The notes beneath the pieces were generated by a model, which worked only from the letters and a program-made list of their open reading frames with translations, was not told the origin of the DNA and did no database searches. A DNA stretch of 64,000 bases. It comes from Allomesorhizobium camelthorni. Lineage in GTDB: Bacteria > Pseudomonadota > Alphaproteobacteria > Rhizobiales > Rhizobiaceae. The position numbers and the translations under genes are program-made. The DNA is taken from assembly GCF_011045125.1 (NCBI RefSeq), contig NZ_JAAKZF010000020.1:1-64000 (forward strand), read 5' to 3'. This document shows, piece after piece, positions 4,371 through 64,000 of the stretch (its first letter is position 1; each line of letters begins with the position of its first letter).

Positions 4371-5588
4371 ATGACAGAACCCGCTCGTCGGGCTAATACA
4401 GGGCGCATGTTGACCAACGCCACCAGGGAATCAAGCGGCGCGCCAGCCGACAATTCCCGTCCCCGCATCGCGGAGACGGAGCAAGACGGTGTGCTCCACT
4501 ACGCGCTGTCTGGCGCATGGACGACCCGCACCGTGGCCCTCGTCGACGCGGAAATGCGCAAGATCGAGCGGAAAACGCGAGGCCGCGCCATGGTTCTCGA
4601 CCTCTCCAAGGTCGAGAAGCTGGATACCGCCGGTGCGTGGCTGATCGATCGGCTGATGACCTCGCTCGCCCAAAACGGCGTCGAGACCAGCATTCGCGGC
4701 CAGAGCGAGGCCGGTTCCGTGCTGCTCGATGCGGTGAGCGACGCTTCGCACAGGGAGCACGACGTAACACAGCCCAAACCGCCGAACATCATCATTCGCC
4801 TGCTGGAACTGCTCGGCCGCGCCGTCTATGCCGGCCGCGACGATTTTCTGGCGTCGATGGGTATTCTCGGCGCCACCATTCGCGGCGGGCAGATGAAGCT
4901 CGGGCGCGGACACAGCATCAATCCCGCAGCCATTTTCAATCAGATCGACCGGATGGGCGTCGGGGCCATTCCGGTTGTGGTGCTGATGTCGGCTATCGTC
5001 GGCGCGATCGTCGCGCAGCAGGGCGCGCTGCAATTGCGCTATTTCGGCGCGGACATCTTCGTCGTCGACCTAGTCGGTATCCTGGTGCTGCGTGAACTCG
5101 GCGTGCTGATGACCGCGATCATGATCGCCGGCCGCTCCGGCAGCGCCATCACTGCCGAGATCGGCTCGATGAAGATGCGCGAGGAAGTCGATGCGCTGAC
5201 GGTCATCGGCCTCAACCCTGTCGGCGTCCTGGTGTTTCCGCGCCTTGTTGCGTTGGTGATAGCTTTGCCCTGCCTTACGGTCGCAGCCAATTTCGCGGCG
5301 TTGGGCGGCGCTATCCTGGTTTCCTGGTTCTATTCCGATATTGCGCCGGCCGCCTTCATCGACCGCCTGCGCAGCGCCATCGATGTCAGCACCATCGCCG
5401 TCGGACTGATAAAGGCGCCGTTCATGGCAATGGTCATTGGCGTCCTGGCTGCCGTCGAGGGCCTGCAGGTCGGCGGCAGCGCGGAGTCGCTCGGCCGGCA
5501 CGTCACCGCTTCGGTGGTCAAGTCGATCTTCGTTGTCGTCATTCTGGACGGCATGTTCGCCATATTCTTCGCTGCGATCGATTTTTAG
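4371..5588 (+). CDS. mlaE: STAS-MlaE fusion, MCE-type ABC transporter permease
   Basis: A 405-aa protein. Residues ~30-135 look like a STAS/sulfate-antitransporter domain (SGAWTTRTV, VLDLSKVEKLDTAGAWLIDR). The remainder is a five-to-six-helix MlaE permease with GIPVVVLMSAIVGAIVAQQ-like and EIGSMKMREEVDAL motifs, where GSMKMREE faces the ATPase. In E. coli the STAS part is the separate protein MlaB. It forms an inner-membrane phospholipid/hydrophobe transporter with the next two genes. The start is uncertain: ATG at 4371 has no good ribosome-binding site, and ATG at 4407 (MLTNATRES) follows a weak CAGGGCGC. It is the first gene of a four-gene operon. Confidence 0.92.
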   Translation: MTEPARRANTGRMLTNATRESSGAPADNSRPRIAETEQDGVLHYALSGAWTTRTVALVDAEMRKIERKTRGRAMVLDLSKVEKLDTAGAWLIDRLMTSLAQNGVETSIRGQSEAGSVLLDAVSDASHREHDVTQPKPPNIIIRLLELLGRAVYAGRDDFLASMGILGATIRGGQMKLGRGHSINPAAIFNQIDRMGVGAIPVVVLMSAIVGAIVAQQGALQLRYFGADIFVVDLVGILVLRELGVLMTAIMIAGRSGSAITAEIGSMKMREEVDALTVIGLNPVGVLVFPRLVALVIALPCLTVAANFAALGGAILVSWFYSDIAPAAFIDRLRSAIDVSTIAVGLIKAPFMAMVIGVLAAVEGLQVGGSAESLGRHVTASVVKSIFVVVILDGMFAIFFAAIDF

Positions 5589-5595
5589 GGTGGCC

Positions 5596-6417
5596 ATGAG
5601 CGACCAGGCCGAACTTGCCGCTGAACCGAACGCCCGCGCCGCCGGCGAGAGCGAAATCGTGCTCTCGGTGCGCGACATAACCGTAGGATTCGACGACAAG
5701 ATCGTTCTCGACAAACTCTCGCTCGACATCAGGCGCGGCGAAATACTTGGGTTCGTCGGAGCCTCGGGTTCGGGTAAGTCGGTGCTGCTGCGGGCCATTC
5801 TTGGCCTCACCAGGAAGCGCTCGGGCACGATCCGTCTGTTCGGCGTCAATGTGGACAAGGCGAGCGAATCCGAACGCATGAGGCTCGACATGCGGCTCGG
5901 GGTCCTGTTCCAGCATGGCGCGCTGTTTTCAGCGCTCACCGTGCAGGAGAACGTGCAGGTTCCGATGCGGGAATATCTCGACCTGCCCAAGAAGCTGATG
6001 GACGAATTGGCTCTCCTCAAGATCGAGCTTGTCGGCCTGCCGCGCGACGCGGCCATCAAATTCCCGTCGGAGCTTTCGGGCGGCATGATCAAGCGCGCCG
6101 CGCTGGCGCGGGCGCTGGCGCTTGATCCCGACATCGTTTTCCTCGACGAACCGACCTCCGGCCTCGATCCGATCGGCGCCGCCGAGTTCGACGAACTGGT
6201 CGCAAAGCTGCGCGACACGATGGGGCTGACCGTCTACATGGTCACCCACGATCTCGACAGCCTGTTCTCGGTGTGCGACCGCGTCGCGGTTCTGGGCAAC
6301 AAGAAGGTGCTGGTCCAGGGGACCATTGAAGATATGCTGGCCAGCGAAGAACCGTGGGTGAAATCCTACTTTCGCGGCAAGCGGGCGCGGCAACTCGATC
6401 TTGCCGCCAGGGAATAG
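5596..6417 (+). CDS. mlaF: MCE-type ABC transporter ATP-binding protein
   Basis: A 273-aa ABC ATPase. The Walker A motif is GASGSGKS (residues 55-62), the signature is LSGGMIKR, Walker B is DIVFLDEPTSGLDP, and the switch histidine is in MVTHDLD. Similarity is to MlaF/TtgA-type proteins that drive MlaE permeases. It starts 7 bp after the permease stop codon. An in-frame GTG at 5590 is an alternative start two codons upstream. It ends 15 bp before mlaD, so the genes are tightly co-transcribed. It should sit on the cytoplasmic face of the inner membrane. Confidence 0.95.
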   Translation: MSDQAELAAEPNARAAGESEIVLSVRDITVGFDDKIVLDKLSLDIRRGEILGFVGASGSGKSVLLRAILGLTRKRSGTIRLFGVNVDKASESERMRLDMRLGVLFQHGALFSALTVQENVQVPMREYLDLPKKLMDELALLKIELVGLPRDAAIKFPSELSGGMIKRAALARALALDPDIVFLDEPTSGLDPIGAAEFDELVAKLRDTMGLTVYMVTHDLDSLFSVCDRVAVLGNKKVLVQGTIEDMLASEEPWVKSYFRGKRARQLDLAARE

Positions 6418-8600: not shown

Positions 8601-11600
8601 CTACCGCAGCCGGCCGCCGGCATGGGCAAGCATGGTGTAGACCTTGCCGGTATCCGAGGTAAGGTAGGTCTGCGCGATGACATTGTCGCGGTCGTTGCGC
8701 GAGACGTCTTTCAGGAGCTTCTCGAAATCGTCGCAATAGCGGTCGACCGCTGCGCGGAATTCACTCTCCGTCTGGTATTTGCGGCGGATCTCGTCAAAGG
8801 TCTGCTGGCCTTTCAGCGTGTAGAGGCGGCGCGTGAACACGTCGCGTTCGCCGCGCCGGTAACGGTCCCACAACTCGATCGACGCCTCGTGGTCGATCGC
8901 ACGCGCGATGTCTACCGACAGCGAGTTCAGCGATTCCACGACATGGGCGGGCGAACGCGGATTGGTGGCGCCGCGCGGGGCGGTCTCTACCACGGCCGTC
9001 TGCGCGTCCTCACGCGAGGCTCCGCTGAGCAGGTCGCGCACCCAGCCGCCGGGCTGCGTCGCACGGCCGTTTTCGCGCGGCCTCTGCACGTCCGCCGGGC
9101 GCTCCGGCGCCTGTGCCGGGGCGGCGCGACGCGGTGGTTCGGGGGCACGCGGCGCAGGTGCCTGCGGCGCGGGCCGTTGCGCCGGGCGGGGTTCTGAAAC
9201 GTCGACCGTGCGGCCGGATTTCGCAACGATATCCGAAAGTTCCTTCAGCGCGTTGATCTGTTCCGTCACGGCGCGGCGGATGGCCGTCGTCGACTGCTTG
9301 GCTTCTTCGGGCATGTCGAGTACGCCGCGCTTCAGCTCTGCGCGGGTGGACTCCAGGTCCTGCCTGATCGAGCCGGCGGTGCGCCGCATGTCCTCGGTCG
9401 CTTCGGCGAAGCGCTTCGTGGCCGATTCCACCACTTCAGAGATGGCAGAGCGGATCTTGTCGGTCGAGGCGAGGGTGCGGTCCTCGGCCTTTTCCAGCGC
9501 CTTGCCGACCAAATCCTCGAAGGACTGCATGATGCGCTCCAGGTCTTCCGACTTCTTGACCAGGCCGACGGCCAGATCTTCGAGCGAGGACTGCCTCTCC
9601 AGCGTATGCTCGAGATTGCTCTGAGCCGAGCTCAACAGCTCCGACGCGCCGGACAGAAGACGGCTGTGCTCGTCGAACTTGGTGGCGATGGAGGCAACTT
9701 CCTTCAGCGTGTTGGAAGACAGCTCGGTGAGGCGCGACGTGTTGGAATCGACCAGCCTTGCGGAGCTTGCAAAGGTCATCGCGGCCTTTTCCGTGGTCGC
9801 TGCGAAGCTCTGCGTGCTGCCGGTCAGGCGTTCGTCGACAGCCGACAGGTTGCCTGCCGCCGCGTCGATCAGCGCGCCGAGCTGTGCACTCGAATCGGTG
9901 AGCTTTCCGATCAGGCTGTTCACACCTTCGGCAAGCGTCGAGCGTGCGCCCTCGACCGCCGACAGCGTTTCTGCGGTGCGGCTGGCGAGCGCATTGACCA
10001 ACGACGCGTTCTCGGCGCGCAGGCGTTCGGCAGCCTGCTCCGTCGCCTGCTCGAGGCTTTTCTGCAGCTCGCCGCCGCCTTCCGCCAGGCGCTCGGCGAG
10101 CGGCCGGCCGGCTTCGTCGAGAATGCGGGTGATCTCGGCCGACCGCTCCGCCAGCATCGAGTTCAGCTCGCGCGTGTTGGCGCCGATGGTGCGAGCCGCC
10201 TCGTTCGTGCTCTGGCCGATATGCTGGCCGACGGCGGTGAACGTTTCGGCGATCACATTGGCGCGCGACACGAGCTGCGTTTCCGCCTGGCTGATCTGCT
10301 CGCTGAGCTTCTGGCCCATGGCCTCGGCGCTGTAGGCGAGGCGGTTTTCGACATCGGCGATATGCGTGCCGACCTTTGCGGCAGCCGCTTCGGCGCTGGA
10401 CGAAAGCCTGATCTCGGCATCCGCCACATGCTGGCCGACGCGTGCTGCGGCTGCCTCCGCGCCCTGCGCTAGCTTCTCGTCGGCGCCGGCGAGCGCTTCC
10501 TCGATGGCGCGGGCACGGGCGTCCAGCTCCTTCGAGGTCTGCAGCGCGCGCGCAATGACGCGCTGTTCTGTGTTGGCGAACGCGTCGGCGATGCCGGCGG
10601 CATGCTGGCCGATGGTGGCCGAGCTGTCGCTGATCCGGGCGGCAAGCTGCTGGTCGGCGTCGGTGAAGACGCGGCCGATCTCGATGGCCCTGCCGGCAAG
10701 CGTGTCGGCGGTTTCTCCGACACGGGCGATAAGACGCTGGTCGGCATCCTCGAATGTGCGGACGATCTCGATCGCACGCGACCCGATGGCTTCGGAGCCT
10801 TCGGAGATACGCGCGGCGAGCTTCTGGTCGGCTTGATCGAACACACCCCCGAGTTCAGCCGCGCGGGAACCGAGCGCTTCCGCCCCCTCGGCAATCCGGG
10901 CGGCAAGCTTCTCGTCGACCGACTGGAATATGCTGCCGAGTTCGGTTGCGCGAGCAGCAAGCGCTTCGGCGGATTCGCCGATGCGCGCCCCGAGCCGCTG
11001 GTCTGCGTCGTCGAAGTTGCGCAGAATGTCTCCGGCGCGGGCGGCAAGCGTAGATGCCGTTTCCACTGCGCGTGCCACCAGCCGCTGATCCGCCTGTTCG
11101 AACGTCCGGGCAATGTCCTCGGCGCGGGCGGACAGGCTCTCGGCCGTCTCGCCGGTGCGGGCGGTGAGGCGCCGGTCGGCTTCCTCGAACACCTGGCTGA
11201 TGTCGTTGGCGCGTGCCAGAAGTGCCGCGGAAGTCTGCTCGGCGCGTTCGGCGATTTGCCGGTCGGCGTCCGTGAAGGCCTTGCCGGCCTCTTCGTGCAG
11301 CGCCGCAGTGACTTCGAGAACCTTTTCCCGCAGCGCGCCAGCGACGACGACGGCGCTCTTTTCGAGAACCAGGCGCACATTGTCGACGCCATTCGAAAGC
11401 GCACGCTCCATTGTGCCGGTACGTTCCTCGATGATGCCGGTCTGGCGCTGGAACGCTTCCTCGATCTTCTCGATGTCGGCTGCGAGCGCGTCGGAGATGA
11501 CGTTGCTCTTGCCGGCGATGGTTTCGATATGGCCCGAAATGGCCTGATCGATCTCCTGCCGTGCAGAGGTGAGCCTTTCAAGATCCTCTTCAAGCGCACG

Positions 11601-14600
11601 CGCCAGGGCGTCGCGGCCTTCGGCCAGCTTGCCGACATGCGCCGCCACGACCTCGTCGATGCCGGCGCGGCTCTGCGCGACCTTTTGCAGGTCGGCTTCG
11701 AGCGCCCGCGACAGGATGTTGCGGCCTTCGGCGAGCTTTTCCACCTGTCCGGCGACCAGCCCGTCGATGCCGGCGCGGCTTTCGGCCAGCTTGTTCAGGT
11801 CGGCTTGGAGCGCACGCCGCAGGATGTCGCGGCCCTCGGCGAGCTTCTCCACCTGCCCGGCGACTAGCCCGTCTATGCCGGCGCGGCTCTCGGCCAGCTT
11901 GTTCAGATCATCCTCCAGGCGGCGCGAAAGCATCTCGCGGCCCTCGACGAACCTCTGGGCATGGCCGGCCAGCAATTCGTCGATGCTGGAGAGATCCTCC
12001 TCGAGCGCCCGCTTGAGCGTTTCGCGGCCCTGCGCGAGCTTGTCCGCCTGGCCGGCAACAAGTCCGTCGATGCTTGCGAAGTCGTCTTCGAGCGCCCGCG
12101 ACAGCACGCTGCGATCCTGCGCGATCTTCTCCATCTGCGCCTTGACCAGGCCGTCGATGCTGGCGAGGTCGGCTTCGAGCGCCTGTGAAAGAATATTGCG
12201 CCCCTCGGCCAGCTTGCCGATGTGGCCGGCGACGATCTCGTCGATGCCTGCACGGGTCTCGGCGACCTTCTGCAAGTCCGCTTCCAGTGCTTGCGTCAGC
12301 AGGTTGCGGCCTTCCGTGATCTTCTCGACCTGGCCGGCGACCATGCCCTCGACCCTTGCAATGTCGTCTTCGAGTGCCTGCGAAAGGATTTGCCTGCCTT
12401 CGGCTATCCTTTCGACCTGGCTGGCGACGAGGCCGTCGATGTTGGACCGGACTTCCGAAAGCCTGCTGAGATCGGCTTCGAGCGCGCGGCGCAGGATATC
12501 GCGCCCCTCGGCGAGCTTTTCGACCTGGCCGGCGACCAGTCCGTCGATGCCAGAGCGGCTTTCCTGCAGCTTGCTGAGATCGGATTCCAGTGCGCGCGAC
12601 AGGATGCTGCGGCCTTCGACCAGCTTGCCGATATGGCTGGTGACCATTTCGTCAATGCCGGCGCGGGTTTGCGCCAGTTTCTGCGAATCTTCCGTGAGCG
12701 CGCGGGCGAGGCTATTGCGGCCTTCCGCCAGCCTTTCCAGTTGGCTTCCGAGTTCGGCGTCGATCGTGGCGCGCTGTTCGTTGATCTTGCGCAGATCCTC
12801 CTCCAGCGCCCGCGAGATCATCTCACGGCCTTCGGCAAGCTTGTGCACCTGCGCGCCTACAGCCTGGTCGATGTCGGCGCGGCTCTCGACGAATTTCGCC
12901 AGATCGGCATGGATCGCGTCCGCCATGCGGTCGCGGCTCTCGGCGAGCCGGCGTGAATTCTCCTCGACGGCCTGTTCGATGCCGGCACGGGCTTCGCCCA
13001 GCCGCTCGATGTCGGCGTCGAAGGCGCGAGATACTACGTTGCCCGCCTGTTCCAGCCGTCCTGCGAAATCACTGGCGCGCGCTTCGAGCATGGAGGAGGT
13101 CGAGGTGACGATGTTGGTCATCTCGGCGCCGATCCGCTCGCGGCCCTGTTCGATCAGTTCGGAAAGCGTCTGCTTGCCGTCGCTGAAAGTGGTGGCGATG
13201 TCGCGGGCCCGCTCGACCAGCGTGTCGTTTATCTGGCGGGCGCGGGCCTCGAGCGCCGCGTTGAGCTTCTGCGTGCCGAGGTCGAGCGCTTCGGCCCGTG
13301 TGTTGAACTCGCTGATCAGTCCCTGGCCGCGTTCGGCAAGGGTGCGCTCGATTCCCTGCAGGCTGGCCTCAAGGTCGGCATTCAGGGATTTCGCCGCCCC
13401 GCCGAGCAGCGAGACCATTCCGGAAGTGCGCTCGTCCAGGAGATCACTCAGCGAGCGCGTCACATCGTCGGAAGTCTGCGTCAGCTTGGCGATGCGCGTG
13501 TCGAGCAGGCTGGCGAAAGCCTCGCCCGATGTCGAGATGCGATCGCTGATCGTATGCAGGCGGCTGTCTAGCGAATCGAAGATCGACATGCCGCTCTCAT
13601 TGATGCGGTCGATCAGCGTGTCGCCGGAATTGGCGATCGTCATCGTCAGTTGCGTCGAAGCGCCGAGAATGCTGTCGCGTATGGAATCGCTCGCCGAGCC
13701 GAGCTGGTCCTTCAGCGTCTCATGCGCACCGGCGATCGAGGCGCGGACCCGCTCCGCATGGGTAACGACGGCTTCGCGCTCGCTGCCAAGCCCGTCGACG
13801 AGCGAGCGGATCCGAGCTTCGTTCTCCGTATAGGAGCGTTCGATCTGGTTGACTTCGGTGTGGACAAGCGTCTCCAGCTCGACGGCGCGCGCAAGCGTGC
13901 GCTCGATGCCTTCGCCCATCGCCGCGACTTCGCGGCGGACGGCCTGTCCGACCGTCATGACGCGGTCTTGCGCCATGTTCTCGGGTTCAGCCAGGCGGAA
14001 GGCGACTTCGGTCATGGATTGCGCGGCCAGCCGCATGTCCTGGGCGCGCCGGATCATCACCGCGAAACCCCAGAACAGGATGACGGGAACGATCGTGGCG
14101 ACAGCCAGCAGGACGGCGTTCGGCGTCGCGACGAGCTGCTCGACCGAACGGATATCCAGAAGGTTCGGCGTCAACATACGCCCAAACAGCACGCCGCCGG
14201 CAATCCACAGCAACGACAGGACCGCCACCACCCAATAGATGGCGTTGGACGAACGGCGGTTCATCCCTTGCAGGAGGCTGCGGTAGTCCTTCTGGCGGTC
14301 GTCATTGGCAGGCGCAAAACCGTTCGGCTGGTCGTTGGCTGGACGAAACCAGGTCGAAGCGGGGACATCTTCATTTGCCGGCGCTGGAGCCGATGTCGAT
14401 GCTGCGCTTGCCGGCGCTGGAGTCGATGTTGACGGCGCGCTGCTGGCTGCTGCCTGGGTGTTGCTTTCGGCGCGGCCTTCGCGCGCAAGCTCGTCGGCTG
14501 CCTGCGAAATCTGCGCTTCCAGATCCTCCATCGAGGCCGCGATATCGAGATCGTCGGCCCCCGCGCTCAAGTCGAAATCGAGCGCCTCCTCGAGTTCCCT

Positions 14601-14648
14601 GGCGACGTCGCTGTCAAAGTTCTTGGTTGTGGTAGGTTTTTTCGCCAT
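8601..14648 (-). CDS. Giant coiled-coil membrane protein, GPR/RgsE-like polar growth protein
   Basis: A 2015-aa protein beginning MAKKPTTTKNF. An acidic helical N terminus (residues 10-60) is followed by an Ala/Pro/Ser linker (65-95) and two membrane helices (~136-156 and ~178-199). About 1500 residues of helical repeats come next, then a Pro/Ala-rich linker and a conserved C-terminal helical domain (YRRGERDVFTRRLY to the end). One array has ~13 copies of a LAEGRxxLxRALEaDL unit; a second has ~9 copies of an aDQrLxARxxExaxxL unit. Length, twin membrane helices and apolipoprotein-like helices match Agrobacterium GPR (S. meliloti RgsE), which forms a ring at the growing pole; homology is inferred from architecture. 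The start avoids 21 upstream codons that look non-coding. Confidence 0.75.
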   Translation of the reverse strand: MAKKPTTTKNFDSDVARELEEALDFDLSAGADDLDIAASMEDLEAQISQAADELAREGRAESNTQAAASSAPSTSTPAPASAASTSAPAPANEDVPASTWFRPANDQPNGFAPANDDRQKDYRSLLQGMNRRSSNAIYWVVAVLSLLWIAGGVLFGRMLTPNLLDIRSVEQLVATPNAVLLAVATIVPVILFWGFAVMIRRAQDMRLAAQSMTEVAFRLAEPENMAQDRVMTVGQAVRREVAAMGEGIERTLARAVELETLVHTEVNQIERSYTENEARIRSLVDGLGSEREAVVTHAERVRASIAGAHETLKDQLGSASDSIRDSILGASTQLTMTIANSGDTLIDRINESGMSIFDSLDSRLHTISDRISTSGEAFASLLDTRIAKLTQTSDDVTRSLSDLLDERTSGMVSLLGGAAKSLNADLEASLQGIERTLAERGQGLISEFNTRAEALDLGTQKLNAALEARARQINDTLVERARDIATTFSDGKQTLSELIEQGRERIGAEMTNIVTSTSSMLEARASDFAGRLEQAGNVVSRAFDADIERLGEARAGIEQAVEENSRRLAESRDRMADAIHADLAKFVESRADIDQAVGAQVHKLAEGREMISRALEEDLRKINEQRATIDAELGSQLERLAEGRNSLARALTEDSQKLAQTRAGIDEMVTSHIGKLVEGRSILSRALESDLSKLQESRSGIDGLVAGQVEKLAEGRDILRRALEADLSRLSEVRSNIDGLVASQVERIAEGRQILSQALEDDIARVEGMVAGQVEKITEGRNLLTQALEADLQKVAETRAGIDEIVAGHIGKLAEGRNILSQALEADLASIDGLVKAQMEKIAQDRSVLSRALEDDFASIDGLVAGQADKLAQGRETLKRALEEDLSSIDELLAGHAQRFVEGREMLSRRLEDDLNKLAESRAGIDGLVAGQVEKLAEGRDILRRALQADLNKLAESRAGIDGLVAGQVEKLAEGRNILSRALEADLQKVAQSRAGIDEVVAAHVGKLAEGRDALARALEEDLERLTSARQEIDQAISGHIETIAGKSNVISDALAADIEKIEEAFQRQTGIIEERTGTMERALSNGVDNVRLVLEKSAVVVAGALREKVLEVTAALHEEAGKAFTDADRQIAERAEQTSAALLARANDISQVFEEADRRLTARTGETAESLSARAEDIARTFEQADQRLVARAVETASTLAARAGDILRNFDDADQRLGARIGESAEALAARATELGSIFQSVDEKLAARIAEGAEALGSRAAELGGVFDQADQKLAARISEGSEAIGSRAIEIVRTFEDADQRLIARVGETADTLAGRAIEIGRVFTDADQQLAARISDSSATIGQHAAGIADAFANTEQRVIARALQTSKELDARARAIEEALAGADEKLAQGAEAAAARVGQHVADAEIRLSSSAEAAAAKVGTHIADVENRLAYSAEAMGQKLSEQISQAETQLVSRANVIAETFTAVGQHIGQSTNEAARTIGANTRELNSMLAERSAEITRILDEAGRPLAERLAEGGGELQKSLEQATEQAAERLRAENASLVNALASRTAETLSAVEGARSTLAEGVNSLIGKLTDSSAQLGALIDAAAGNLSAVDERLTGSTQSFAATTEKAAMTFASSARLVDSNTSRLTELSSNTLKEVASIATKFDEHSRLLSGASELLSSAQSNLEHTLERQSSLEDLAVGLVKKSEDLERIMQSFEDLVGKALEKAEDRTLASTDKIRSAISEVVESATKRFAEATEDMRRTAGSIRQDLESTRAELKRGVLDMPEEAKQSTTAIRRAVTEQINALKELSDIVAKSGRTVDVSEPRPAQRPAPQAPAPRAPEPPRRAAPAQAPERPADVQRPRENGRATQPGGWVRDLLSGASREDAQTAVVETAPRGATNPRSPAHVVESLNSLSVDIARAIDHEASIELWDRYRRGERDVFTRRLYTLKGQQTFDEIRRKYQTESEFRAAVDRYCDDFEKLLKDVSRNDRDNVIAQTYLTSDTGKVYTMLAHAGGRLR

Positions 14649-14916
14649 GCCGCCATTACCCTGTACTAATGTCGCGGAAACGCCGGATTCCCGGCTCTTT
14701 TTTGCCCGCAAGCGAGGCTTATTATGGATATCCCGTACCGTACTGGCACAGTCCGGTAAAGGAAACTTGAATCGGCCCCGATGCGTAAAAGTTTAAACAT
14801 AGGGTTAACGAAGCCACGATTCTGGCGGCTTTGCGGCGGAATTGCGGGCTTCCCACATTAACGCGTTATCCACAATGATCGGAATAGGCTGAGCCGGTCA
14901 GATCCGACGCGCGAAC

Positions 14917-58575: not shown

Positions 58576-59724
58576 ATGGCGGTTTCACTCTCCCGGCGCG
58601 GCGATGTCGAGCCCTTCCACGCGATGGACGTGCTCGCCGAAGCCAATCGGCTGAAGGCGCTCGGCAAGCCGGTGATCTCAATGGCGGTCGGGCAGCCGTC
58701 GGACCCGGCGCCGACGCTGGTCCGCGAGGCCGCGGCAAGCGCGCTGGTCGACGGCCGCATCGGCTACACAGACGCGCTGGGCACGGCCGAATTGCGCAGC
58801 GCCATAGCATCCCACTATCAGGAACATTACGGGCTTGAAGTGCCGGCGGCGCGGATTGCCGTGACCACCGGATCCTCGGCAGCATTCAATCTGGCGTTTC
58901 TGGCGATGTTCGACACCGGCGACCGCGTCGCCATCGCCGCGCCCGGCTATCCGGCCTACCGCAACATCATGAAAGCGCTCGGCCTCGATGTCGTCGAGAT
59001 CGAACTCGAAGGCGCTGCCTATCTCCACGCCGAGCACCTTCGGGCGGCGCATGCCGAAAAGCCGCTCAAAGGGGCACTTTTCGCCAGCCCGGCCAATCCG
59101 ACGGGAGCCGTGATTCCGGCGGACGACCTCGAAGTGCTCGTCCGGACGGCCGAGGAACTTGGAATCGCATTGATTTCCGATGAGATTTACCACCGGCTGG
59201 CCTATTCGGCGCCCGATACCACGGCGCTCGCCTTCAGCGGCGACGTGACCGTCATCAACTCATTCTCGAAATACTATTGCATGACCGGCTGGCGGATCGG
59301 CTGGATGGTTCTGCCGGAAAAGCTCGTCCGCCCGGTCGAACGCATCCAGCAGAGCCTCTACATCTCCGCGCCCGAACTGTCGCAGATTGCCGCGGCGCAG
59401 GCGTTCCGGGCAACCGACGAGCTGGAGGCGGTCAAGGCGCGCTATGCCTGGAACCGCGATCTCTTGATGCAAAGGCTCCCGGAACTCGGCTTTGCTCTGG
59501 CAGCGCCGATGGACGGGGCATTCTATGCCTATTGCGACGTTTCCCGGCTGACCAATGACAGCATGGAATTTGCCCGCGCGATGCTGGCGGAGGCGCATGT
59601 CGCGGCAACGCCGGGCCATGATTTCGATCCGCTCGCCGGCCAGCGCTTCATGCGCTTCTCCTATGCCGGAAGCCATGACGATATGACCGAAGCGCTGGAT
59701 CGCATCGGCCGATGGCTCGCATGA
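58576..59724 (+). CDS. Class I/II pyridoxal-phosphate-dependent aminotransferase
   Basis: A 382-aa type I fold aminotransferase: [89 protein letters not shown] and the PLP lysine in [18 protein letters not shown]. The C-terminal Arg that binds the carboxylate is in [13 protein letters not shown]. Closest to aspartate/aromatic aminotransferase-like enzymes; the substrate is not determined. Upstream codons to 58531 are open. It overlaps glsA by 4 bp (ATGA). Confidence 0.92.
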
Positions 59725-60665
59725 CGGAAGCGCCAATGCCTGAAATCGAAGCCGTGCTCCCGGATATCGCTGCCGAGATGGCCGCTCGCGCCGATCGCGG
59801 TGACGTCGCAACCTACATTCCGCAACTCGGCAAGGTTGATCCACGAAAATTCGGCCTGACTGTCGCCATGGTGGACGGACGCGTGTTTTACGCAGGCGAT
59901 GCCGACGAAGCGTTTTCGATCCAAAGCATATCCAAGGTGTTCACGCTGACCTTGGCGCTCGGCAAAGTCGGCGATGCGCTGTGGCGAAGGGTAGGGCGCG
60001 AGCCTTCGGGAAATCCGTTCAATTCGATCGTCCAGCTTGAGCAAGAGCACGGTATACCGCGCAATCCGTTCATCAATCCTGGCGCGATCGTCGTTTCGGA
60101 CGTGCTGCTGGCGGGGCATCAGCCGCGTGAGGCGATTGGCGAAATCCTGCGCTTCGTGCAGTTCCTGGCCGACGATGAAACGGTGTTCATCGACCGTGAG
60201 GTCGCTGCGTCAGAGCGGGCGACCGGCCACCGCAACTTCGCGCTCGCCAATTACATGCGTTCCTTCGGCAATCTTGACCATGCAGCCGAACTCGCGCTCG
60301 GCGTCTATTTCCACCACTGCGCCATCGCCATGACGTGCCGCCAACTGGCGTTGGCCGGCCGGTTTCTGGCCTGCGATGGCCACAATCCGGCGACCGGTCA
60401 TTCGGTTGTCTCAGCCGAGCGGGCGAGGCGCATCAACGCGCTGATGCTGACTTGCGGCCATTATGACGGATCAGGCGACTTCGCATTCAGGGTCGGCATT
60501 CCGGGCAAGAGCGGCGTCGGCGGCGGCATCCTCGGCGTCGTTCCGGGCGTTGCGTCGATGGCAGTCTGGTCGCCCGGCCTCAACGCCGCCGGAAATTCCA
60601 GGCTTGGATCGATCGCGCTGGAAAAGCTCGCCAAGGCGATGAACTGGTCGATCTTTTCGCCTTGA
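59721..60665 (+). CDS. glsA: Glutaminase
   Basis: A 314-aa glutaminase, hydrolysing glutamine to glutamate and ammonia. The serine-dependent catalytic motif [11 protein letters not shown] (S-x-x-K) is intact; other blocks are [81 protein letters not shown] and [10 protein letters not shown]. The start [12 protein letters not shown] at 59721 overlaps the aminotransferase stop as ATGA; ATG 59712 is an alternative. The two genes form a pair linking Gln/Glu with transamination. Confidence 0.95.
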
Positions 60666-60683
60666 GCCACCAGCGCGCCAAAG

Positions 60684-60721
60684 AAAAGGCCCGCATCGCC
60701 GTCCGCGGTGCAGGCCCCTTT
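60684..60721. terminator. Terminator between glsA and the rne 3' end
   Basis: AAAAGGCCCGCATCGCC pairs imperfectly with GGTGCAGGCCCCTTT around GTCCGC, flanked by an A-run and T-run, so it can act for glsA (+) and for rne (-) which ends at 60744. Confidence 0.6.
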
Positions 60722-60743
60722 AGTTATTCAGCATAAATGCTTA

Positions 60744-61790
60744 TCAGAAAAAGCTTTTTCGCTGCCACCATCCAGCCTTTTTCGGCTTTTCGTCGGCGGA
60801 TTCGATCTCTTCCTCGCCAGTCGACGACACGAGCTTGACGACTGGCGCGACCGGCTTTTCATCTGCCGTATCGGACGTTTCTGCCGGATCGGCGGCCGCT
60901 TCGACCGGTTCAGCGGCCTTGCGCCGCGGGGCGCGCGGCTTCTTCGGCTTTTCTTCGGCCGGCACGGCAACCGCTTCCGGCTCGGCTATCGCCGGTTCCG
61001 CGGAAACAGTTGCTTCCGCAGCCTCTTCAGCCTTCACCTTTTTCGGCCTTGCGGCGCGTCGAGGCTTCTTGGGCTGTTCGTCTACAGCGGCGACCTCCTC
61101 GGTCGGTGTCGCAACGACGGCAGCGTCTTCCGTCACCTGCTCCGACAAAGCCTCGACGGCTGCGGGCTCCGCCGCAAACGTCTCGTCCTGCTGCTCCGCT
61201 CCGTCCTCGTCGCGCCGGTTGCGCTTGCCACCGCGCTTGCCGCGGCGGCGCTTCTTGCGGTCGACATCCTCGCCGCCTTCCCCGGCAGCCTCGGCTGCTA
61301 CGGGTTCAGCCGTCTCAGCGGCCTCGGCGCGATCTTCGTCGCTAGCGGCCACAACATCCTGCGTCGCCGCGCCTTCTACATGCGTGACATCGCGGTCGCG
61401 ATCCTTGCCGCCGCGCCGTCTGCGGCGCTTGCGGCGCTTGCGGTCGCGTTGCTCGCCGGTTTCGGCTCTCTGGATCGGCTGTGCGGGCCGTTCTTCGGCC
61501 GCGGTCTCGACGACTTCTTCCTCTTCCTCGACGATTTCGTCCTCCGGCTCGTCATAGACAGGAGCGGGCAGGGGCGCGAGACCGCCAACAGGCTTCTCGG
61601 CGACTGCGCCACGGAAGATCGCGTAATGCTGCGCGCCGACCGTGTCGTCCATCTCGATCGTGATCGTCAGGCCGAAGCGCGCCTCAAGTTCGGCAAGGGT
61701 GCTGCGCTTGTGGTTGAGCACGTAGAGCGCGGTCGAGGTCGGGGTGCGCACCGTAATGTGGTTGCGCGAATCCTTGATCAGGAATTCCTG
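60744..61790 (-). pseudogene. rne: Ribonuclease E, C-terminal part, out of frame with the catalytic half
   Basis: The reading after the frameshift covers 348 residues. It begins QEFLIKDSRNHITVRTPTST (small domain, conserved in RNase E), continues LARFGLTITIEMDDTVGAQH and goes on as the usual low-complexity acidic/basic scaffold (DRKKRRRGKRGGKRNRRDED, many Ala/Glu/Lys/Arg) that binds RNA and degradosome partners, ending in GWWQRKSFF. It has no start of its own in a good place. Removing one base near 61790-61791 joins it to the catalytic half to give ~945 residues. Confidence 0.85.
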
Positions 61791-63582
61791 CGATGGCCCG
61801 GACCACCAGCAGCGCCACGGACGATTCCGAACGCACATGCCCGGTTCCGCCGCAATGCGGGCAGGGCTTCATCGTCGATTCGAGCACGCTGGCGCGGATG
61901 CGCTGGCGCGACATCTCCATCAGGCCGAAATGCGAGATGCGGCCGACCTGGATGCGCGCGCGATCGTTCTTGAGGCAATCCTTCAGGCGCTTCTCGACCG
62001 CACGGTTGTTGCGGTTCTCCTCCATGTCGATGAAGTCGATGACGATCAGGCCCGCGAGATCGCGCAGCCGAAGCTGCCGGGCGACTTCCTCGGCCGCTTC
62101 GAGATTGGTGTGGAGCGCGGTTTCCTCGATCGAATGCTCCTTGGTTGAGCGCCCGGAGTTCACGTCGATCGCAACCAGCGCCTCGGTCTGGTTGATGATG
62201 ATGTAGCCGCCTGACTTCAGCGTCACCTGCGGCTGAAGCATCCGGTCGAGTTGCGCCTCGATGCCGTTGCGCACGAAGATCGGCGTCGTGTCGCGATAGG
62301 GCTGCACCACCTTTGCATGGCTCGGCATCAGCATGCGCATGAAGTCCTTGGCTTCACGGTAGCCGTCTTCGCCCGAGACCAGAACCTCGTCGATATCCTT
62401 GTTGTAGAGATCGCGCACCGAACGCTTGATCAGGCTGCCTTCCTCATAGACGAGGGCGGGCGCGGTCGACTGGAGCGTCAGCGTCCTGACCGTTTCCCAG
62501 AGCCGCATCAGATATTCGTAGTCGCGCTTGATCTCTGCCTTGGTGCGGCTTTCGCCGGCGGTGCGCAGGATGACGCCCATGCCCTGCGGCACTTCGAGAT
62601 CCTGCACCACTTCCTTCAGGCGCTTGCGGTCCTGGGCATTGGTGATCTTGCGCGAAATGCCGCCGCCGCGAGCGGTGTTCGGCATCAGCACCGAATAACG
62701 TCCGGCGAGCGACAGATACGTGGTCAGGGCCGCGCCCTTGTTGCCGCGCTCTTCCTTGACCACCTGCACCAGCAGGATCTGCCGGCGCTTGATGACTTCC
62801 TGGATCTTGTAGTGGCGGCGCACCGGCTTGCGGCGGTTGCGGACCTCCTCGAGCGCGTCTTCGGCGCCGACCGATTCGATCTCATGCTCGTCGCCATTGG
62901 ATCCGGGCACTTCTTCGAGCACGCCGCCGCGATCGTTTTCCGTCAGGCTCGACTTGGAAATTTCCTCGGAAACGACGTGGGCGTCCGCCGTGGCGGCCAT
63001 CGCAATGTTGGTTGCGTCGTCCAGAGCGGCATCCGGCGAAATTTCTGCGGCTTCGGCATCGGCTGCGCTGCCGTCATCTCCGGCGACCGGCTCGGCCAGG
63101 CCGGCATCGTCGTCTGCGGCAAGCCTCTCATCGGTCTCGTCGTCGCCCGCGGCTTCGCCGTCTTCGCCGCTCTCAGCGGCGGATCGCACTTCGCCGCTGC
63201 GGTCGCGGTTCTTGCCGCCGCGCCTGCGGCGACGTCCGCGATTACGGTCGTGGCGGTCTTCGCCTTCGCCGTCCTCGTCGTTCTCCTCCTCGGCCGCCTC
63301 GGCTTCCGCGCGAAGCAGCGCCTGACGGTCCGCAACCGGGATCTGGTAGTAGTCGGGGTGAATTTCACTGAAGGCGAGGAAACCGTGCCGGTTTCCGCCA
63401 TATTCGACAAAGGCTGCCTGAAGGGAGGGTTCTACCCGCGTGACGCGGGCGAGATAGATGTTTCCTTTGAGCTGCTTCTTATCCTGGGATTCAAAATCGA
63501 ATTCTTCGATACGGTTACCGTGAACAACGACGACCCGTGTTTCCTCCGGGTGGGAGGCGTCTATTAGCATCTTGTTGGGCAT
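61684..63582 (-). CDS. rne: Ribonuclease E, N-terminal catalytic part (frameshifted after the Zn-link)
   Basis: As given, 632 residues of which 1-597 are genuine. MPNKMLIDASHPEETRVVVV and QLKGNIYLARVTRVEPSLQA open the S1 domain, which is interrupted by an acidic/basic insert (~95-265) as usual in alphaproteobacteria. The RNase H/DNase I part follows, with catalytic Asp473 (AIDVNSGR) and Asp516 (VIDFIDM), then the Zn-link Cys574/Cys577 (PCPHCGGTG). After ...LLVVRAI the frame changes to 35 unrelated residues. RNase E cleaves single-stranded RNA and is central to mRNA decay and rRNA maturation. The truncated form would lack the small domain and scaffold. Confidence 0.9.
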   Translation of the reverse strand: MPNKMLIDASHPEETRVVVVHGNRIEEFDFESQDKKQLKGNIYLARVTRVEPSLQAAFVEYGGNRHGFLAFSEIHPDYYQIPVADRQALLRAEAEAAEEENDEDGEGEDRHDRNRGRRRRRGGKNRDRSGEVRSAAESGEDGEAAGDDETDERLAADDDAGLAEPVAGDDGSAADAEAAEISPDAALDDATNIAMAATADAHVVSEEISKSSLTENDRGGVLEEVPGSNGDEHEIESVGAEDALEEVRNRRKPVRRHYKIQEVIKRRQILLVQVVKEERGNKGAALTTYLSLAGRYSVLMPNTARGGGISRKITNAQDRKRLKEVVQDLEVPQGMGVILRTAGESRTKAEIKRDYEYLMRLWETVRTLTLQSTAPALVYEEGSLIKRSVRDLYNKDIDEVLVSGEDGYREAKDFMRMLMPSHAKVVQPYRDTTPIFVRNGIEAQLDRMLQPQVTLKSGGYIIINQTEALVAIDVNSGRSTKEHSIEETALHTNLEAAEEVARQLRLRDLAGLIVIDFIDMEENRNNRAVEKRLKDCLKNDRARIQVGRISHFGLMEMSRQRIRASVLESTMKPCPHCGGTGHVRSESSVALLVVRAIAGIPDQGFAQPHYGAHPDLDRALRAQPQAQHPCRT

Positions 63583-64000
63583 TATTTCTTTTCCCGCCGG
63601 ATGCAGCCAGCGAGCCCGGAAGCGGCGAAATGCGCCTCTCCGACCCCGTCAATCGCTGCATTCCGGACATATTAGCGTCCGCGGGCCGCTGCCTGGACGC
63701 CATGGCGGTGCCGCCCGCTGCCGAACCGGCGCGGTAACCTGCGGACCTTTCCATGATTGCGCCTGAAGCCATCGCGTAACCTTGCGGAACCATTTGAACC
63801 AAAGCCCGGAAAAACCGGACCAGCTGTTTGCTCGTACAGAGCCGGCGCGGAGTTGTCGTTCCGGCCGTTTTCCTCGACGTCGGGGTTCACGTTGCCGCAA
63901 ACACCGCGACGAAATCCGTCGCGATCACCTTCGGCCTTATCGCAGGATGCGATTGAAGCCGTATTCGTCGCCTTGGCTAGTTGTGGAAAGCGGAGGCGAC
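63583..64000. other. Upstream region of rne without a recognised gene
   Basis: The 418 bp upstream of the rne start contain no convincing coding region; the open frames are short and unlike known proteins. rne genes often have long 5' leaders that mediate autoregulation, so much of this may be leader and promoter. CCGCCGG-type inverted pieces occur (63700-63740), but no clear hairpin could be defined. The divergent gene expected here in relatives would lie beyond the window. Confidence 0.4.

Follow-up and report, generated by a model that had tools for sequence, protein, structure and literature searches.

A single extra base splits the RNase E gene in the deposited sequence of Allomesorhizobium camelthorni

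RNase E cleaves RNA and is normally essential. As deposited, its gene (rne) in the soil bacterium A. camelthorni is split into two reading frames by one extra base at position 61790 (C on the minus strand, which carries the gene, and G on the plus strand). The relatives examined lack this base, which probably stems from a mistake in assembly or base calling. Coordinates refer to the window, the whole stretch of 64,000 nt that was analysed. The first frame, ORF1 (61684-63582, minus strand), encodes a 632-aa product composed of 597 native codons (61792-63582), which cover the catalytic part to just past the Zn-link and close with SSVALLVVRAI at codon 597, and 35 out-of-frame residues. ORF1 matched the Pfam family RNase_E_G (PF10150; E 2e-103; score 346 bits, cut-off 25.5), indicating that the catalytic domain is present, and TIGR00757 across the entire profile (positions 1-415 of 415; E 1e-156; score 522 bits, cut-off 326). 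The Zn-link motif CPHCGGTG (61840-61863, minus strand) lies a short way before the break; it has the CPxCxGxG pattern of the RNase E/G family and aligns with E. coli CPRCSGTG.

The remainder of the gene (60744-61790, minus strand), consisting of the small domain and the scaffold tail and ending in KKAGWWQRKSFF as in the congeners, is out of frame. It is contained in ORF2 (61838-60744, minus strand, 364 aa), where the first codon after the site begins at 61790 and where the conserved continuation EFLIKDSRNHITVRTP is found. The RNase_E_G_Thio family (PF20833; 86 positions) is accordingly divided, with positions 1-26 in ORF1 and 27-85 in ORF2 (E 4.3e-14). Thus the small domain, which forms the tetramer interface, does not share a frame with the catalytic region, and the C-terminal scaffold tail is in the ORF2 frame only, not in the ORF1 frame. 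These results agree with the original prediction that RNase E reads normally over residues 1-597, that its continuation is found one base out of frame on the same strand from 61790, and that the truncated form would be without the small domain and scaffold.

Using the 947-aa RNase E of the congener G001 as query, we detected exactly two abutting pieces in the A. camelthorni genome, residues 1-599 (61789-63582) and residues 599-947 (60747-61790), the second of which was well above chance (89% identical, E 7e-175). The same query matched a single piece, 1-947, in each of the congeners G001 and G002. A full-length form therefore exists in congeners, as had been anticipated, although its length is 947 aa rather than the suggested ~945 aa; the ~632-aa length given for the truncated product was right. 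The start, the Zn-link and the C-terminal end are common to A. camelthorni, the congeners G001 and G002 and the named Mesorhizobium/Aminobacter relatives. Upstream of the site, amino acid identity is 96% to G001 and 95% to G002; downstream of it, identity is 89%. The A. camelthorni gene differs in that its frame is split by one base after codon 597, whereas the relatives examined are not split by such a base. The locus is best explained as an ordinary alphaproteobacterial RNase E gene present in a single copy.

The extra base is private to A. camelthorni among the loci examined

For the nucleotide comparison, positions 61700-61900 were aligned locally to 111 loci, of which 110 aligned (two of them from A. 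camelthorni itself) and one, L110, did not. All 108 alignable loci from other genomes had a net one base fewer. The gap was placed exactly at 61790 in 104 of them and within three bases in three (L074, L078 and L080); for L030, the gaps fell elsewhere in the alignment, yet the net loss was also one base. The protein frame of L110 is continuous across the site. Among 80 named loci (the best 80 of 572 confirmed), the frame across residues 580-625 was continuous and free of stops in 79 by tblastn, the exception being L051. This tblastn comparison replaced motif screens, which had left over 23 and then 18 of the named loci because they were too strict for divergent Zn-links. In a second relative set (61 genomes searched, 57 matching, loci taken from the best 30 with A. 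camelthorni included), the frame was continuous in 29/29 loci from other genomes and only the A. camelthorni locus, L002, failed; the named and second sets may share species and so are not independent. The alignment to relatives that had been proposed as a check thus showed that the extra base is absent and that homology continues in frame past the site, in line with one surplus base in A. camelthorni.

Other broken copies of rne were also detected. In L051 (NZ_AYWX01000009.1, Mesorhizobium sp. L2C084A000; 5219-5480), Illumina-adapter-like sequence followed by N lies inside the gene, and this sequence (an exact 13-mer, one match) is why the locus fails the frame test. Its open frame comprises 663 codons, 70 of them from the Zn-link onward. 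The L051 break is an evident assembly artefact in a species-representative genome, which shows that drafts can contain rne breaks of artefactual origin. Like A. camelthorni, L051 comes from a draft in which the frame breaks down soon after the Zn-link; L051 has the adapter-like stretch inside the gene, whereas the A. camelthorni window has none, and no other locus among the 175 examined contained the adapter 13-mer. In L083 (NZ_BAMP01000011.1, Nitratireductor aquibiodomus NL21; 5133-6268), likewise a draft in which homology resumes in another frame, the rne tail has a frameshift at about 5609 and was matched in two frames by the L073 tail query. Counted from the start of the Zn-link, the shift comes 159 residues later, within the tail, and leaves the small domain in frame, unlike in A. 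camelthorni. L096, which like L083 had been left over by the second motif screen, has an rne gene that runs off its contig. Overall, at least two of the 80 named loci (L051 and L083) have an interrupted rne, and in L051 the interruption is clearly artefactual.

No elevation of dN in the out-of-frame half

The two halves of rne were analysed separately, with dN/dS calculated by NG86 and also by YN00. For the whole downstream half, dN was 0.0567 between A. camelthorni and G002, 0.0572 between A. camelthorni and G001, and 0.0616 between G001 and G002; dN/dS for the same pairs was 0.214, 0.149 and 0.143 by NG86 and 0.278, 0.194 and 0.179 by YN00. For the small domain (75 codons), again in this pair order, NG86 dN was 0.0244, 0.0241 and 0.0242 and dN/dS was 0.125, 0.063 and 0.042, with 4, 3 and 2 amino acid differences per 75 residues, numbers that are too few to read either way. 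The A. camelthorni-G002 pair had the highest dN/dS each time, through lower dS and not through raised dN. Downstream of the site, the frame contains neither a further stop nor another net frameshift, and the blastn gap pairs at 61471/61481 (against G001) and 61089/61093 (against G002) cancel out. Since dN is not raised in the out-of-frame half, the break is very recent if it is real at all. The data give no support to an old break, and by divergence a recent break is indistinguishable from none.

Sequence context of the site and frameshift load of the assembly

The context of the site, ATCGCAGGAATTCC, contains no run longer than two as judged by eye, in agreement with the earlier observation that it has neither a homopolymer nor a slippery heptamer. 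The site adjoins a perfect 12-bp palindrome, CAGGAATTCCTG (61779-61790), in which the extra base extends a 10-bp palindrome, AGGAATTCCT, that is found in G002 and not in G001. This palindrome did not figure in the original prediction. Single-base insertions that extend a perfect palindrome of at least 10 bp make up 14 of the 8,529 possible in the G002 gene and 10 of 8,529 in the G001 gene, counts that provide a lead and not a test given that the pattern was spotted after the fact. The string GAGGAATTCCT, on either strand, occurs in 33/109 of the relatives' loci. Template switching at imperfect palindromes is described as rendering them more perfect (PMC7202029). The extension is compatible with template switching by a polymerase, whether in the cell or in the test tube, although the match to a one-base snap-back is loose; the palindrome context does not separate mutation from error. 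An unusual hairpin at the site was considered and rejected (local strand z -0.30).

The genome assembly comprises 7.3 Mb in 346 contigs and is 99.99% complete and 3.96% contaminated. The site is on an 82,701-base contig whose nearer end is 20.9 kb away, and no homopolymer, adapter 13-mer or contig end was found at it; we counted both observations against an error. An alternative contig with an intact rne was rejected, as the gene matched a single place in the genome. A repeat-driven misjoin was also rejected, with site-spanning 15-, 19- and 25-mers occurring once each in the A. camelthorni DNA searched (the whole of contig C113, 240 kb of C1 and 140 kb of C2).

We also screened for frameshifts by comparing G001 ORFs to 462,701 bases of A. 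camelthorni DNA, 311,973 of which aligned. This yielded 21 candidate frame changes, and the reverse comparison (A. camelthorni ORFs against G001) yielded 15. All 21 were scanned against protein families, as was one of the 15 on the reverse list, a PhnE ORF for which the site is outside the domain. The break fell inside a recognised domain in two of the 21 (RNase E and, at about C2:99265, a MASE7-adenylate/guanylate cyclase) and outside a domain that was present in six (the SecA, transglycosylase, Peripla_BP_4, TauE, AHSA1 and rotamase ORFs). The other 13 were without a family match above the cut-off (12 with no match and one with a match below the cut-off only), and some of these probably represent antisense or leader reading. 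A looser first screen of C113 gave five further G001 ORFs, none matching Pfam. The small number of frameshifts in recognised domains somewhat weakens the case for an error, though with 13 ORFs unmatched the true load may be higher. The MASE7 cyclase gene (C2 about 99265, within L152) is split relative to G001, with one base missing beside an A run.

Origin of the extra base

The break aligns near residue 427 of E. coli RNase E. In E. coli, the large domain spans residues 1-400 and the small domain residues 415-510 with the Zn-link between them (PMC2631609); limits are also given in PMC2948425 and PMC3997798. By the limits of PMC2631609, the truncated form keeps the large domain and the Zn-link and loses nearly all of the small domain. 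For E. coli, a passage of PMC9841416 describes a groove common to the small and RNase H domains as an essential determinant. For S. meliloti, PMC12691583 reports that the disordered tail of RNase E is removable and indicates essentiality of the enzyme in this related rhizobium. The S. meliloti truncations quoted there resemble A. camelthorni ORF1 in losing the scaffold/BR-body tail; their cuts were made at codon 665 or at the gene's 3´ end, whereas the A. camelthorni break is earlier and removes the small domain too. No second RNase E/G gene that might serve as a backup was found at E <= 0.001 when the whole genome was searched for this family with full-length RNase E and PF10150 as queries, and a second copy was rejected on this basis.

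The main alternative to an error is a genuine frameshift that arose very recently in the strain or culture sequenced, with the cell surviving on a 632-aa RNase E that lacks the small domain and the degradosome/BR-body tail. Such a truncation is possible but would be costly, and we regard it as rather unlikely. The truncated form retains not only the large domain and Zn-link but also, in the aligned part, the two catalytic aspartates (D303 and D346 in E. coli). A 2006 paper reportedly described a minimal RNase E peptide that is active although it lacks the tetramer domain, and the RNase E peptide of Caruthers et al. reportedly supported colony formation of an rne null. The paucity of in-domain frameshifts among the sampled contigs also favours a real mutation, as does the fact that the base extends a palindrome in the manner of template-switch mutations (PMC7202029), though a one-base extension is not classical quasipalindrome correction and the local strand forms no unusual hairpin. 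Other observations argue against a real truncation: RNase E is essential in a related rhizobium, and the rhizobial truncations quoted as viable take away no more than the disordered tail (PMC12691583); no other locus among the 80 named ones is frameshifted here, the L083 tail shift being further downstream; and the out-of-frame half is without raised dN. Somewhat less probable again is the stronger claim that the frameshift is real and that the strain lives on an RNase E lacking both small domain and scaffold, which would act in a Zn-linked or non-tetrameric form in a cell with no degradosome or BR-bodies. If the mutation were real, A. camelthorni would have a naturally tetramer-less RNase E, a natural test of the need for the tetramer in alphaproteobacteria, and one could ask outside E. 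coli whether the small domain and degradosome tail are required.

It is very improbable that the break is bypassed in the cell, either by a +1 programmed frameshift or transcriptional slippage or by separate synthesis of ORF2 as half of a split RNase E. ORF2 overlaps ORF1 by 155 nt and has an in-frame ATG at 61838, within ORF1, that could in principle start a separate product; a weak purine-rich GGCGGA, noted by eye, ends 7 nt upstream of this ATG, and the dN of ORF2 is not raised. This ATG, however, straddles conserved His-Val codons 152 nt ahead of the ORF1 stop (61686-61684), and it is the only one of the ORF2 starts (61838, 61751, 61721 and 61652) from which the whole small domain is kept. 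The first start past the ORF1 stop, at 61652, would drop most of the small domain, and no start codon that leaves this domain intact was found at the ORF1 stop, where a coupled split gene would have one. The frame change is seen in 0/108 alignable relatives, such that there is no conserved site, the homopolymer or heptamer on which slippage would act is absent, and a search of 59000-64000 against Rfam at gathering thresholds gave no match. Programmed recoding is not supported, and the original doubt about it stands, given a shift that is private among the examined loci and has neither a slippery run nor a suitable restart.

The original prediction left the choice between a real mutation and an assembly error, and our data lean to error. 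This reading draws on the privacy of the shift among the examined loci, the lack of a backup gene, the essentiality of the enzyme, the unraised dN, the artefact in L051 and a comparison to singleton frameshifts. In a GeneTack survey of complete genomes, BLASTp-validated singletons are expected to be sequencing errors and not genuine indels, with recent indel mutations allowed as another source (PMC3711429). By analogy, the A. camelthorni rne frameshift resembles this singleton class. One spurious base at 61790 would have arisen by base-calling, amplification or assembly in the 346-contig draft. We infer that it is not in the DNA of the cell, in which the gene would most likely be intact and specify a product of about 947 aa. 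From the sequence as deposited, an annotation pipeline would report rne as a pseudogene or as two genes in an otherwise near-complete genome, and readers might wrongly conclude that an essential enzyme has been lost.

Elsewhere in the window, a 2036-aa ORF is found at 8601-14711 on the minus strand. The stretch of it at 11.6-12.7 kb gave matches at several positions of its counterpart in G001, which suggests internal repeats in this large protein.
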